Of a stretch of 64,000 bases of DNA, positions 49,113-55,218 are shown in pieces. Source of the DNA: an uncultured Pseudomonadota bacterium (lineage in GTDB: Bacteria > Myxococcota_A > UBA796 > SXON01); NCBI GenBank assembly GCA_903844155.1, contig CAIMSU010000070.1, forward strand, positions 1-64,000. Reading direction: 5' to 3'. A program made the position numbers and the translations under genes. Under the pieces are notes generated by a model. The model saw only the letters and a list, made by a program, of their open reading frames with translations. It was not told the DNA's origin and ran no database searches. Numbering within the stretch: the first letter of the stretch is position 1; each line of letters starts with the position of its first letter.

Positions 49113-49586
49113 TCAAGGAACCGGTCGGGAGGAGCCCTCGGCGCGCGCGCGAAACGCCTCCAGCATCTCCCCCAGGCTCGTCCCCGCCAACGTGGTCGCC
49201 AGCGAGGTCGGCAGGAACATCGCCAGGTCTATCGCCAGCTCGTACGTCGCGCGCGTCCCGACGCGGCCATCCTCCCCCGCCGGCGTAGGCACCAGCGTCC
49301 AGCTCCCCTCATTCGCCCGGAACGCCTGCCCCTCCACCAGCGACCACCGCACGACGATCGCGCCATCGTCGCGCTCCGGCAGGCGCCACAGCCGCAACGT
49401 GTAGTGCAGGTGGCGGATGACCTCGATGCCGAACACGACCGTCCAGTCATCGGTGCCAGCGGTCAGCAACGGCGTGGCGCTCCGCACGTTCCCCAGGAAC
49501 TCGGGGTACCGCGGAAAGTCCACGATCACGGCGTAGAGCTCCGCGGGCGCCACGGCGACGTCGATCGTCCGCGACACCCGGGGCAT
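49113..49586 (-). CDS. SRPBCC/COQ10-like lipid-binding protein
   Basis: 157 residues of the START/SRPBCC fold. The opening RTIDVAVAPAELYAVIVDFPRYPEFLGNV matches the polyketide-cyclase/COQ10 family (ybaW-like layout), with a hydrophobic ligand cavity. It may carry a lipid or quinone. Its ATG overlaps the stop of the RecG-like gene (TGATG), so the two are translationally coupled. Confidence 0.8.
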   Translation of the reverse strand: MPRVSRTIDVAVAPAELYAVIVDFPRYPEFLGNVRSATPLLTAGTDDWTVVFGIEVIRHLHYTLRLWRLPERDDGAIVVRWSLVEGQAFRANEGSWTLVPTPAGEDGRVGTRATYELAIDLAMFLPTSLATTLAGTSLGEMLEAFRARAEGSSRPVP

Positions 49587-52546
49587 CAGCGGCGACGCCT
49601 GCGCTTGCGTCCGTTCGCCCGCGCCTGGGCCTGCGCCTGCGCCGGCGTTGCCTGCGTGCTCGGCCCCGCCGCAGGAACTGGGCGTTCAACCTCCATGTCC
49701 AGCGAAACGTCCTCCCCGAGGCGCGTGCGCACCTGCGCGAGCAGCGCCCGATGCACCCGGCGCTTCAACCCGGGGTCGACGGCGAGCAGCCGAACCGCGT
49801 CCTGCCGCGTCCGGATGAGCAGTTCCCGGTCTTTCGCAGGCTCGGCCCAGGTGAATCCGGGGATCTCCTCCGAGCCGCTCTGGCCCGCGTACAGCTCGGC
49901 GATCTGCCAGCCGTCGGTCTCCTTGCAGAACGCGTCGATGCGCGCGCGCGCGGCGATGTCCGGCTCCTGGCCCATGACGAGCAGGCAGCGGCCGGGCGTC
50001 GCACCCTGACCGACAAGCGCCCGGAGCTGATGCAGCCGCACGATGTCAAACTCCTCGGCGTGCTCGATGATCACGACGGCCGCGTTGGGGATGACCGGGC
50101 CGTTCTCGACATGCGTCGTCGCGAGCAACACGTCGGCGCGGCGATGCAGAAAATCGTCGAACGCCCGGAACCGCTCTTCCTTGGACAGCGCGCCGTGGAA
50201 GATCCCCACACGCGCGCCTGGAAACGCGCTTTCCCGGAGCGATTCCGCCATGTGGCGCGCCTCGGACGACGACAGGAGGTCCATCCCGCGCAGCAACGGA
50301 AAGACCAGCAGGACCTGGTTCTTACGGTCAAGCGCCTCGCGGGCGACGGCGTAGGCATCGGTGCGCTGCTCGGCAGACCACACGGATGTGGTCACGGCGG
50401 GCACTGGCGCCGGGAGGGTCGTCAGCGCGAGGTGGCCGTAGACGGAGAGGGCGACGGCCGCGGCGACCGGCGTTGGGGTCACGACGAGGACGTCCGGACG
50501 CCCCCCCTCCTCCAGCCGCGACAGGTCGACGCCACCGAAGTTGCCGTGCTCCTGCAGGATCACCAGCCCGAGCTTGCGGAACGGCGGTGGGTCCGTGGCG
50601 AGGCCGTGCGTGCCGAAAACGACCAGCGACTCGCCCTTCTTGATGGCATCCGCCGCCGCACCCCGGGCGGGACCGCTCACCAGCACGGGCTCGACGCCCC
50701 CGTTGCGAAGGAGCTCCTGGGCGAAGAGGAACTGGTGCTCGGCGCTCTGGGCATCGGGGCAGAGGAACAGCACCTGGTGCTTGCCCTCGGCGACGGTGAG
50801 CATGGCGGCAGCGAGCACCTCGTGGGCGCCAGCGCCGGCGTCCGCTTGAAGGAGCCGCGCCATCGGCTGTGAACGCCGAAGATCCCGCCGGATGTCGTCC
50901 AACGCGGACTCCTGCGCGTCGCTGAGCTGCCAGCCGGCCTGGGCGAGCGAGCGGGCGACGAGGCCGAACAGCGCGGAGTTGGCGGTGCCACGCTCCCGGC
51001 CCTGCCGCTGCCGCATCATCGCGACGCCGAGCTGCACCTGCAGGAGTTCATCGAACGCGAGGCGTGCACGGCCCTTTCGCGACATGTTGGCGGGGAAGTG
51101 GACGTCCTTGAGCGCAGGCGCGAGCGCGATGAGCTTGTGACGCTCGACCAGCTCGGGCGGAAGGTGATCGGCGAGGCCGTCGACATAGCGCTTGAGCGCG
51201 ACCCGCAGCCCGGCCCGGACGCGCGCGTCGTCCACTCCGGGGATCGCGTAGCGCGGCAACCAATCGCCGCCGCGACCGTCGATCCCGAGCAGCTCGGCCT
51301 CCAGGACAACGCCGTCCCAGACCCGCGACCCGCCCGCCTCCTCGATTCCCTCCTGAGGCGTCGCCGCTTCGCCCGGCTCCCAATGGCCCGCAACGCCAAG
51401 CTCCGTCCCGCCAGCAGCGTCCCGAACGTCCGCCGGAGGCGCCGACCAGCGGCAGACCACCGAACCCCGCTCGCTCACGAGCCGCAGCTCAAAACGCCGG
51501 GCTCCGGCACCAAACCGCGTGCAACGCCCGCGGACCGTCCCGCGCACGATCACCGGTCCCGTCGGCGAGACGCCGCTCACCAGCCGGTCTCCTGCCCGCT
51601 CCGTGGCGACGGGCGCGCGCAGGAGCAGCCCCGCGATGTCCTCGACGCCCGCCTCATCCAGCGCGGCGATCTCGTCGTCCGTGTACACGCCAAGCGCGGC
51701 CAGGGGCGCGCCCGTGTGCTCGGGGTGCCCGAGCGCCCAGGACCGGATCTCCGGCGGGGGCTCGGGTTCACGGCGGCGCGGCTCCCGATCCTCCGCCGGC
51801 GGACCCTGCCGACCCGACGCGTCCTCGTTTCGTCCGTCGCGACGAGGCTCATCCCGCCGCGGTTCATCGCGCCGGCCTTCGTCGCGTCGTGGCTCACGGG
51901 GCTCACGGGGCTCGTCCCGGCGAGCCTGCTCAGGCCGCGGCTCCCGCGCTTCGTCGCGGCGATGGTCGTCCCGTCGACCGTCCTCGCGGCCACCTCGCCG
52001 GGGCCCACGATCGTCACCTTGCCGGGCTCCCCGCTCGTCGCCCTGCCTCGGCCCGCGGTCGTCGTTCTGCCTCGGCCGCTCGGGCTCACCTGCCGCCTGT
52101 TCGTTCGGCTCAAACGCGCCGGCGCTCTCCCGCAAGGCACGAACCTCCTCGCGAATATCGGCAGTCACCACCTCCACGACCGGAGGCGGCGGCGGTGGCG
52201 CCAGCACGCGTCGCTCGCTCGCCACCTCGGCCGGCAGCAACTGGGCTCGCGGCTCGCCGGCGACCCCGGGCGACCCAACCTGCGCCTGCAACGCGGAAAG
52301 CTCCGCCAACGCCATCCCGATCCGCTCGGTGCGTTCGCCTTCCTCCGCATCGCCCAGGCCCACCACGAGCGCCTCGATCGTCGAAAACCGCGCACCGTGC
52401 TCGGGATTCGCTGCCCCGCTCGTGAGCCATCGTCGCAACGCCCCCTCGACCGCGCCTACAGCAGCCGCAGGAGCCGACGAACGGGAAACCCAAAGCAACG
52501 TACGGTTCAGCACGTCGACCGCGCTGACCACCGATTCATCCGACAT
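49586..52546 (-). CDS. RecG-like protein with degenerate helicase motifs
   Basis: 986 residues from ATG 52546 (AAGGA eight bases before). The C-terminal ~550 residues align by eye with RecG: FDELLQVQLGVAMMRQ, KDVHFPANMSR, LSDAQESALDDIRRDL, then the helicase core. But the Walker A counterpart (568-577, ADAGAGAHEV) lacks GK[ST], the DExH counterpart reads ILQEHGN, TAT reads VTPTP, and motif VI reads ALVGQG instead of GRVGRG. Residues ~270-430 resemble the RecG wedge/OB region. An Arg/Asp/Glu/Pro-rich insert fills ~154-262 and the C-terminus ends in RKRRRRR. A motor-dead paralogue that might bind branched DNA or RNA is the simplest view. It is downstream of greA (59 bases). Confidence 0.75.
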   Translation of the reverse strand: MSDESVVSAVDVLNRTLLWVSRSSAPAAAVGAVEGALRRWLTSGAANPEHGARFSTIEALVVGLGDAEEGERTERIGMALAELSALQAQVGSPGVAGEPRAQLLPAEVASERRVLAPPPPPPVVEVVTADIREEVRALRESAGAFEPNEQAAGEPERPRQNDDRGPRQGDERGARQGDDRGPRRGGREDGRRDDHRRDEAREPRPEQARRDEPREPREPRRDEGRRDEPRRDEPRRDGRNEDASGRQGPPAEDREPRRREPEPPPEIRSWALGHPEHTGAPLAALGVYTDDEIAALDEAGVEDIAGLLLRAPVATERAGDRLVSGVSPTGPVIVRGTVRGRCTRFGAGARRFELRLVSERGSVVCRWSAPPADVRDAAGGTELGVAGHWEPGEAATPQEGIEEAGGSRVWDGVVLEAELLGIDGRGGDWLPRYAIPGVDDARVRAGLRVALKRYVDGLADHLPPELVERHKLIALAPALKDVHFPANMSRKGRARLAFDELLQVQLGVAMMRQRQGRERGTANSALFGLVARSLAQAGWQLSDAQESALDDIRRDLRRSQPMARLLQADAGAGAHEVLAAAMLTVAEGKHQVLFLCPDAQSAEHQFLFAQELLRNGGVEPVLVSGPARGAAADAIKKGESLVVFGTHGLATDPPPFRKLGLVILQEHGNFGGVDLSRLEEGGRPDVLVVTPTPVAAAVALSVYGHLALTTLPAPVPAVTTSVWSAEQRTDAYAVAREALDRKNQVLLVFPLLRGMDLLSSSEARHMAESLRESAFPGARVGIFHGALSKEERFRAFDDFLHRRADVLLATTHVENGPVIPNAAVVIIEHAEEFDIVRLHQLRALVGQGATPGRCLLVMGQEPDIAARARIDAFCKETDGWQIAELYAGQSGSEEIPGFTWAEPAKDRELLIRTRQDAVRLLAVDPGLKRRVHRALLAQVRTRLGEDVSLDMEVERPVPAAGPSTQATPAQAQAQARANGRKRRRRR
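51752..52087 (-). repeat. Arg/Asp/Glu/Pro-rich low-complexity coding region
   Basis: This stretch encodes ~110 residues made mostly of R, D, E, P and G in short repeats such as RRDEPRRDEP and DDRGPRQGDE, inside the RecG-like protein. It is probably disordered and resembles RG/RD-rich RNA-binding tails. The nucleotide sequence repeats only imperfectly, so it is not a satellite or CRISPR. Confidence 0.7.
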
Positions 52547-52605: not shown

Positions 52606-53085
52606 CTACTTGTAGAGGACCGCCTTGATGATCACGGTCCGGGTGCCCTTCGGGGTCTCGAAGCGCACCTCGTCGTCCACCCGGCGGCCGAGCAGGGCAC
52701 GCCCGATGGGGGACGAATAGGAAATCTGCCCGGCCCGGACGTTGGCCTCCTCAAGCCCGACGATGCGGTAGGTGAACCGCTCCTCGGAGTCCTCGTCCTC
52801 CAGGTCCACCGTTGTTCCGAAGACCACGGTGTTGCTGGGAACCATCTTGGTGACGTCCACAACCTCGGAGAGCGCGAGCCGGTATTCCAGCTCCCGCACC
52901 CGGCCCTCGATGTGGGCCTGACGCTCCTTGGCGTCCTCAAACTCGGCGTTCTCGCTGATGTCCCCGTGCTCGCGCGCCTCTTCGATGTCGCGCACCACCT
53001 GGGGCCGAAGCACTTCCCGCACGTGCTTGAACTCCGCCAGCATCTTCTGGTAGCCGGCGGGGGTCATGGGAATGCGTTCGCTCAT
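52606..53085 (-). CDS. greA: Transcription elongation factor GreA
   Basis: 159 residues. N-terminal coiled coil (~10-75) with the tip motif EHGDISENAEFEDAKE (acidic D/E for RNA polymerase cleavage activation), then the globular domain with SPIGRALLGR(R)VDDEV and FETPKG. Standard GreA length. It rescues backtracked polymerase. Its start overlaps the pyrC-like gene stop (ATGA), so it lies at the end of the pyr unit. Confidence 0.93.
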   Translation of the reverse strand: MSERIPMTPAGYQKMLAEFKHVREVLRPQVVRDIEEAREHGDISENAEFEDAKERQAHIEGRVRELEYRLALSEVVDVTKMVPSNTVVFGTTVDLEDEDSEERFTYRIVGLEEANVRAGQISYSSPIGRALLGRRVDDEVRFETPKGTRTVIIKAVLYK

Positions 53086-54275
53086 GCCGGCAAGGTAACC
53101 AGAAACTCCATCGAAGGGAACGTGGCCACGACGCGGCCCCGGAGGCGCACGCCGGCGAGGGCGTCGTTTCGGGCCAGCGATCGGTGGCTGACGGGGTCGA
53201 CGATGCTGACGGCCACGGGGTCGACGAGGGCCCAGCCCCCGGTGGTCTCTGGCAGGACGGCGCGCGGGGCGAGGGCGAGGGCGTGGACGGTCGCTTCGAG
53301 GTCGCCGTCGAGGGCGGTGAGCGTAGCCGCGAAGGCCGTTTCAAGCCCGGTGGCGCCGGGAACGGCACGTTCGAACTCCAGCTCCTTCTCCTCGGGCGCG
53401 CGCGGTCCGTGGTCGGCGGCGACGGCCAGCACACGGTCACGCACCCCCTCCACGAGCGCCTCCCGGTCGTCCGCGGAGCGTAGCGGCGGGTGCAGGCGCA
53501 CGCGGGTGTCGTAGGGCCCCTGCTCCACCACGCGCTCATCGAGGATGAGGTTCCGGGCGGCGACGTACCCCAGGATCGGGAGCCGGTCGGCCGCGGCGCG
53601 ACGGAGCAGGTCGACCCCGACGCGGGTCCCGATCGGCCCGGTGACGACGCGTGCGCCGGTCGCGCGCACCAGCGCGATGATGCGCGTGAGCCCGATCTCC
53701 TCGTTGGCGCCCGGGTTTCCGCGCAAGCCGAGCACGCAGGCGAAGGGGCTGTCGTGCACGACGCCAAGCGCGTCCAGCCCGGGATCGGCGGGACGAAGCC
53801 ACAGCCGAAGCTTGAACTCCCGCGCGTACTCCATCGCGTTGCGGAGGATCACCGTGTCCGCCATCGCCAGGCCGCCGTCGCTCACACCGGGGATGGAAAA
53901 CCGCGAGAGGAGGCCGAGTTCACTCAGTGCGAGGCCTGCGAGGCCCCGGGTGAGCGCGGGCGTCGGCCACACCCGGACGCCGCCAGGCAGGGTTCGGCGC
54001 AGGTCCGCCAGGTGCTCGGGCTGGTCGGGGACGGGGTCGACGCAGGGACGGGTGACGAGGTCGGCGTAGCCGCCAGCGAGCGCAGCGTCGGCGAGGCTGC
54101 CTGGGGTCTCGCGGACCGGAAAGCCCGGAAACCCAGGGTCGCAGCCCAGATCGACGAACGACGGGACGAGCACGAGCCCGCGCCCGTCGATCGTCTCGCC
54201 GGGTGGACCCGCGGCCGCCTCGACCACGCGCGGACCGGTCTCGCCCCACACGCGAACGCCCTCAATCCGCGGCAT
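53082..54275 (-). CDS. Inactive dihydroorotase homologue (PyrC'-like)
   Basis: 397 residues of the dihydroorotase fold (VPSFVDLG, GLAMADTVI, PPLRSADDREAL, GLETAFAA). The metal centre is gone: the DxHxH motif reads D42-L-G-C-D, the later histidines of HxSTxxSV and HHL are G-P and A-A, and DHAPH reads DHGPR. It therefore cannot bind zinc in the usual way. In Pseudomonas and relatives a similar dead PyrC' is an obligate structural partner of PyrB; by position (directly after pyrB, 14-base overlap) this is the same kind of protein. A catalytic PyrC should be elsewhere. Confidence 0.85.
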   Translation of the reverse strand: MPRIEGVRVWGETGPRVVEAAAGPPGETIDGRGLVLVPSFVDLGCDPGFPGFPVRETPGSLADAALAGGYADLVTRPCVDPVPDQPEHLADLRRTLPGGVRVWPTPALTRGLAGLALSELGLLSRFSIPGVSDGGLAMADTVILRNAMEYAREFKLRLWLRPADPGLDALGVVHDSPFACVLGLRGNPGANEEIGLTRIIALVRATGARVVTGPIGTRVGVDLLRRAAADRLPILGYVAARNLILDERVVEQGPYDTRVRLHPPLRSADDREALVEGVRDRVLAVAADHGPRAPEEKELEFERAVPGATGLETAFAATLTALDGDLEATVHALALAPRAVLPETTGGWALVDPVAVSIVDPVSHRSLARNDALAGVRLRGRVVATFPSMEFLVTLPA

Positions 54276-55218
54276 GGCTGGTCCCTCCGGCCGTTTCAGG
54301 CGCCCCGTCGCTGCCGAGCAGCAAGTAGAGCAGCGCCATGCGCACCGCGATGCCGTTGGTGACCTGGTCCAGGATCACGCTCTGCGCGGAGTCGGCGACG
54401 TCCGCGCTGATCTCCACGCCCCGGTTGATGGGCCCGGGGTGCATGACCATGACGTTGGGTCCCGCGGCCTTGAGCCTCGCCAGATCGAGTCCGTAGAAGC
54501 TCGCATATTCGCGCGGGCTGGGGAGCACACCGCGCCCGAGCCGCTCGTGCTGGATCCGCAGGAGCATGATCACGTCGGCGTCGCGCACGACATCGTCGAT
54601 GGTGTGCCGCATCTCCACCGGCAACCCGGCCAGCTCCGCGCGGCACATCGTCCCCGGACCGGCGACGAGCACCCGGGCACCCATCGTGGTCAAGCCCCAG
54701 ATGTTCGACCGCGCAACACGGGAATGCTGCACATCGCCGACGATCGCGACGCGAGCGCCATCGAGGCTCCCGAGGCGGTCCCGAATCGTCAACATGTCGA
54801 GCAGGCCCTGCGACGGATGCTCGTGGATGCCGTCGCCGGCGTTGAGCACGTGCCAGCCGAAGTTTCGCGCCAGCAGATGGGGCGCGCCCGCGCACCCGTG
54901 GCGCACAACTACGGCGTCGGGCTGCATCGCGAAGATCGTGCGCGCCGTGTCCATCAGCGTCTCACCCTTGGTGGTCGACGACGTGCTGACGGAGAAGGAG
55001 AGCGTGTCGGCCGAGAGGCGCTTGGCCGCCAGCTCAAAACTCGTCTTCGTCCGGGTGGAGTTCTCGAAGAACAGCGTCACGACGAGCCGACCGCGCAGGG
55101 GCGGCACCTTCTTGACGCGGCGTCGCCCGACCTCGCGCATCTGATCCGCGGTGTCGAGGATCGTGGCGATGGTCTCGCGGGGCATCCCGCGCAATTGGAG
55201 GAGATCCTTGCCGATCAT
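54262..55218 (-). CDS. pyrB: Aspartate carbamoyltransferase
   Basis: 318 residues, catalytic subunit. Carbamoyl-phosphate loop [13 protein letters not shown], the 80s-loop [39 protein letters not shown] and [12 protein letters not shown]. All expected active-site residues are present. Catalyses the committed step of pyrimidine synthesis. The C-terminus has a short extra tail. It overlaps pyrR by four bases and the PyrC'-like gene by 14. Confidence 0.95.

Follow-up and report, generated by a model that had tools for sequence, protein, structure and literature searches.

RecG is regarded as a near-universal repair translocase, absent from only a few groups in a comparison of 117 species (PMC1193525). 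In the E. coli enzyme, a phenylalanine of the wedge is critical to the binding of branched DNA (PMC7889586), and the C-terminus matters for unwinding as well as for localisation (PMC4027168). Among the papers on inactive RecG or on RecG distribution in the openly accessible journal literature that we searched, none describes a motor-dead RecG, and in the same literature no paper joins RecG with Myxococcota. Pseudo-enzymes are known; as far as we found, a clade-wide pseudo-RecG replacing the sole RecG has gone unreported.

Here we analysed a stretch of 64,000 nucleotides (the window) from an uncultured bacterium, in which an earlier note had read one gene as a motor-dead RecG homologue. In one uncultured Myxococcota order this core enzyme of DNA repair seems to have been put to another job: its motor is lost, a poly-Arg tail has been gained, the gene still sits in the ancestral slot and no working copy is found elsewhere.

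RecG homology and the motor motifs

The gene is a real, single open reading frame and lies on the minus strand, running from an ATG at 52546 to a stop that ends at 49586 and encoding 986 residues (Table 1). In profile searches the RecG models match its product with E-values from 1e-106 to 1e-61, among them NCBIfam NF008168 (E=4.5e-106, 356 bits; equivalog cut-off 718 bits) and TIGR00643 (E=2.6e-83), and all equivalog cut-offs lie far above its scores. The Mfd model aligns to residues 535-869 only (136 bits; cut-off 800). We rejected an Mfd identity on account of this weak and partial match and of a separate, intact Mfd in the same genome. Pfam reports Helicase_C (PF00271) alone. Among solved structures, T. 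maritima RecG (1gm5, E=2.3e-63) comes nearest, together with E. coli RecG (9wm0). We modelled residues 265-955 with AlphaFold2 from a shallow alignment; the model is of moderate quality (mean pLDDT 60.5, pTM 0.33), with a domain arrangement that is not trustworthy. Much of the OB and the two RecA-like domains nevertheless reaches a pLDDT of about 70-90, OB strands are predicted, and Foldseek with this moderate model returned 1gm5 on top (E=2.8e-27, 686 columns). The retained RecG scaffold of the earlier note is thereby borne out by sequence and fold, and we regard it as beyond doubt that the gene is a true RecG homologue. An extended N-terminus is likewise found in the phylum's canonical RecG (model NF008168).

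Table 1. Map of the pseudo-recG and the genes around it, in window positions.
Feature	Position	Strand	Remarks
pseudo-recG	49586..52546	-	986 aa; ATG start; stop overlaps the next gene's ATG (TGATG)
N-terminal region, residues 1-150	52097..52546	-	fast-evolving, dN/dS 0.34-0.58
Arg/Asp/Glu/Pro-rich low-complexity insert, residues 151-268 (approx.)	51743..52096	-	lineage-specific, fast-evolving
OB-fold wedge domain, residues 269-436	51239..51742	-	R366-W367 retained; fork-capping Phe replaced by S368
Linker and first RecA-like domain, residues 437-715	50402..51238	-	
Walker A remnant ADAGAGAH (canonical GDVGSGKT)	50822..50845	-	
Motif II remnant ILQEHGNFG (canonical IxDEQHRFG)	50534..50560	-	
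Motif III remnant TPTPVAAA (canonical TATPIPRT)	50456..50479	-	
Second RecA-like domain, residues 716-886	49889..50401	-	PF00271
R802-R803, invariant Arg pair specific to the order, between motifs IV and V	50138..50143	-	
Motif VI remnant RLHQLRALVGQG (canonical QLHQLRGRVGRG)	50003..50038	-	
TRG-motif remnant DGWQIAELYAGQSGSEEIPGF (RGPGELLGxRQSG lost)	49853..49915	-	
C-terminal poly-basic tail RKRRRRR	49589..49609	-	order-wide synapomorphy, mixed Arg codons
SRPBCC-fold gene	49113..49586	-	adjoins pseudo-recG in families f1, f2, f4, f5, f6
greA	52606..53085	-	ancestral neighbour
pyrC-like pseudo-dihydroorotase (HxH lost)	53082..54275	-	
pyrB, intact aspartate carbamoyltransferase	54262..55218	-	

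Mapping onto E. coli RecG from NC_000913 confirmed that the catalytic residues of Walker A, DExH, TAT and motif VI are gone, as had been claimed. Walker A K302 and T303 have become A574 and H575, motif II D397 and H400 are now Q665 and G668 next to a retained E398, motif III R433 is A696, and in motif VI R584 and R587 are L844 and Q847 with R582 retained. The stretch holding R639 and Q640 of the TRG motif is deleted, the equivalent of Q640 being lost throughout the order, and F97 of the wedge corresponds to S368 beside a retained Trp. A Thr of motif Ia has turned into an Asp that is invariant in the order. Motifs Ib, III and V still have their Thr, and the scaffold persists along with several motif residues (T646, T690, T810, E814 and R842). 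Positions of the SSB-Ct pocket (E. coli R467, R474 and R614) are, in this alignment, not conserved in live Myxococcota RecG either.

Since several independent catalytic groups have lost their residues, ATP hydrolysis and translocation by the window protein are, judged from its sequence, very unlikely. RecG-type fork binding and handling are probably gone too, because the wedge Phe and the TRG are lost and the motif Ia Thr has been exchanged for an invariant Asp. We consider it very improbable that a residual or rewired enzyme still remodels DNA here, with hydrolysis taken over by residues that have migrated or made possible by a partner in a complex. Such an enzyme could draw on the scaffold and the several motif residues that persist, and pseudo-enzymes predicted from lost motifs sometimes turn out active, according to a review (PMC10211241); it would, however, have to work without the P-loop Thr, the Walker B Asp, the Arg residues of motifs III and VI and the TRG, and in the window's genus without the P-loop Lys as well.

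Spread, descent and neighbours

We sampled 63 genomes of the window's order, from 34 genera and 6 families. By profile search, none of the 63 encodes a canonical RecG above cut-off; 59 of them, including the window's genome, carry one sub-threshold orthologue each (80-431 bits), and the remaining four show no sub-threshold RecG orthologue match. The 58 other orthologues were retrieved, and all are open frames, some ended by contig edges. We rejected a low score alone as proof of motor death and read the motifs directly, because RecG proteins elsewhere in the phylum that score only 460-580 bits are fully intact: in other families of the phylum, with these low scorers deliberately included, the motifs were perfect in 18 of the 18 read, and they are fully intact in two other families of the class, f8 and f9. 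No order orthologue that reaches motif II has the canonical DEQH. T303 is substituted in nearly all rows. In the rows from families other than f3, Glu stands in place of D397 in 38 of 39 (Gln in the window), R584 has changed to H or L and R433 is lost. Other features of the nucleotide site are retained outside f3, with the Walker A Lys present as GDVGxGKG in 34 of 39 rows and the acidic residues of motif II (EE) in nearly all; the window's genus (ADAGAGAH/VQ) no longer has K302, nor does about half of f3. Motif loss is thus conserved across the order with no intact copy, on a larger scale than first reported.

The f3 orthologues (loci L080-L101) have diverged to an extreme degree, with scores as low as 80-240 bits, yet keep the poly-Arg tail and the greA synteny; constraint may be weaker in this family. 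Members of the order in public records include the Myxococcota- or proteobacterium-labelled MAGs Baikal-deep-G128, Ki3-D2 bin-0965 and LJ-7-9m bin-1278.

An intact RecG paralogue elsewhere in the window's genome was sought and none was found, the other strong match being its Mfd (C113, L102), whose motifs are intact. Across the order, RuvB is above cut-off in 59 of the 63 genomes and PriA in 50. As RuvB, PriA and Mfd are intact, the decay is specific to RecG. Beyond the order, one genome of another order of the class (G063, family f7) has a dead RecG (L110, G063:C277) of 1559 residues with different substitutions, a huge acidic and basic low-complexity segment and no Arg tail; it lies outside the order's clade on the tree and hence may be a second, independent case. 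In many Myxococcota families (e.g. f13, f17, f23, f34, f43 and the majority of f15 and of f19) the sole match is Mfd-like, and RecG seems to be missing altogether.

The slot pyrR-pyrB-pyrC-greA-recG of the order is also the arrangement around the intact recG of f8 and f9, and the greA-recG pair recurs in f27, f15, f51, f12 and f19. In a tree computed without the motif columns, a single branch (SH-aLRT 100) splits off the 58 usable rows of the order, and the topology inside this clade broadly tracks its families. Because the ancestral slot is shared with live RecG and the order's proteins form a single clade, the pseudo-recG arose by one conversion in place and was then inherited vertically; it is no paralogue. 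It follows that the linkage to greA is ancestral and therefore uninformative on a new role: the earlier note spoke of a coupling to greA, which we dropped as a clue to function, the active RecG of outgroups adjoining greA too.

As for the coupling to the SRPBCC gene that the same note had proposed, this neighbour is derived, occurring in f1 (the window's family), f2, f4, f5 and f6, and was found neither in f3 nor beside live RecG. At 49586 the stop of the pseudo-recG overlaps the SRPBCC start as TGATG, which suggests translational coupling. These observations bear on a possible role as a structural RNA, ribosome or transcription factor that would work with greA and the distantly RatA-like SRPBCC product. 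Arg-rich low complexity, as in the window protein, is typical of RNA binders, and the SRPBCC product gives a match, though a very weak one, to the RatA toxin model (E=9e-4). With that score far below the cut-off, the greA linkage ancestral and no SRPBCC gene found in f3, we judge this role improbable.

The pyrC-like gene of the same cluster has lost its metal-binding HxH across the order (DLGCDPGFPG and others), the pyrC of outgroups f8 and f9 keeping DLHVHLREPG. A dihydroorotase above its model cut-off is encoded elsewhere in the window's genome (C242).

Selection and newly fixed residues

Between close pairs within the order the core evolves with a dN/dS of 0.05-0.23; values for distant pairs were discarded as saturated and compositionally biased. 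A sequencing error or recent pseudogene can be dismissed, given open-frame orthologues in 34 genera with matching losses and this low dN/dS. Live RecG has 105 positions conserved at 90% or more. In the order, 38 of these hold the same residue at 90% or more, which agrees with the earlier claim that fold-bearing residues remain, five are swapped for another residue, motif Ia T to D and motif II D to E among them, and 62 have become variable. Conversely, 67 positions are near-invariant in the order only, a tally that also counts the five swaps; many are Arg or belong to what was the catalytic cleft (R553, R554, D598, R792, R794, R802, R803 and R837).

This constellation of invariant cleft residues points to a ligand, and could belong to a nucleotide-sensing switch in which, in most families, a (d)NTP or a ppGpp-like ligand sits in the altered P-loop and drives a conformational change without translocation, a capacity that the window's genus would have lost later. 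Leaving aside f3 and the window's genus, nucleotide binding, even slow hydrolysis via migrated residues, is possible in most families, because they keep the Walker A Lys and an acidic motif II. A switch is nonetheless unlikely as the general role, as the window's genus and much of f3 have no P-loop any more and the protein is still conserved there.

The other newly fixed feature is the basic C-terminus described in the earlier note, which proved to be order-wide. Defined as at least six Lys/Arg among the last 15 residues, a poly-basic tail ends each of the 53 ORFs of the order that are complete; it is absent from the other 23 RecG ORFs of full length, that of f7 among them, from 2 Mfd proteins and from 214 neighbouring genes. 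Its Arg codons are mixed (CGC 39%, CGT 29%, CGG 20%, AGG 8%), which speaks against a DNA repeat and indicates that the tail is maintained at the protein level. The Arg/Asp/Glu/Pro insert of the same note is present but is not the defining novelty: it evolves fast and stands out only in f1 and in two members of f5, whereas the short poly-Arg tail is order-wide.

The same data weigh on a slow decay toward loss, of the kind that may have emptied the Myxococcota families apparently without RecG. The many families in the phylum with an Mfd-like match only and the very divergent f3 copies would fit such a course. However, frameshifts and internal stops are absent, the dN/dS of close pairs is well below 1, the gene is retained in 34 genera, and residues have become invariant and a tail has been gained anew; slow decay is already largely refuted, and we give it hardly any credence. 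Altogether, for the window's genus we are nearly certain that the protein is an orthologue of RecG that has lost its motor and is maintained by selection.

A proposed role and comparison with known systems

We somewhat favour, over all else, a pseudo-helicase under selection that would serve as a rigid non-catalytic adaptor, anchored by its Arg tail on nucleic acid or on an acidic partner. The order's own recG, at its ancestral locus, has become a vertically inherited pseudo-helicase without the residues needed to hydrolyse ATP, to cap the branch point and to translocate by way of the TRG; purifying selection holds its OB/RecA/RecA scaffold, many new cleft residues have become invariant and the poly-Arg tail has been fixed. 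Without a motor, the protein may then function as a rigid adaptor: the tail, aided in some families by the charged linker, would tether it electrostatically to DNA, RNA or an acidic protein, and the altered, Arg-rich motor cleft together with the OB fold could offer a new surface to a partner or ligand. The motor job of RecG would be dispensable in the order, or covered by RuvAB, PriA or other helicases. The repurposed nucleic-acid-binding scaffold of the earlier note thus stands as repurposed and motor-dead; nucleic-acid binding itself we infer, and binding of the RecG type to forks is probably gone.

A more specific version we put forward tentatively, at a little under an even chance: the order's only RecG would have been converted in situ to a protein that no longer catalyses and is selected for a new function, its Arg-rich cleft and poly-Arg tail binding a specific new partner, and the adjacent pyrC would be a pseudo-enzyme too, giving an operon with two.

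Automated annotation would credit this order with a RecG, although a recognisable RecG motor is missing from every one of its genomes. The graded loss of motifs provides a natural set for asking what the RecG scaffold does without ATP, and the clade-wide pseudo-RecG bears on which RecG functions are dispensable and on how a repair motor gains a new role. A handful of purified proteins would allow the mechanism to be tested directly.

Compared with described systems, the protein is closest to RecG itself (NF008168/TIGR00643, 1gm5, 9wm0), with which it shares the orthologous locus, the OB wedge and two RecA domains, the helical C-terminal region and the phylum's extended N-terminus. Unlike RecG, it lacks intact Walker A and B, the motif III and VI residues, the TRG Arg/Gln and the fork-capping Phe, and it has gained the poly-Arg tail and new invariant residues. 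With Mfd it has the RecG-like translocase module in common, by sequence and fold, but the window's genome has a separate intact Mfd. Like other pseudoenzymes and pseudo-helicases, it keeps a fold under selection after the loss of catalytic motifs; here, however, the sole copy of a near-universal repair helicase has been converted in place in a whole order, with no active paralogue. The neutralisation of ruvA in Wolbachia (PMC4224334) is similar in that one of two overlapping branch-migration systems is relaxed. There, ruvA drifts neutrally and recG is conserved, whereas in this order it is recG that has changed, under purifying selection and with gained features.
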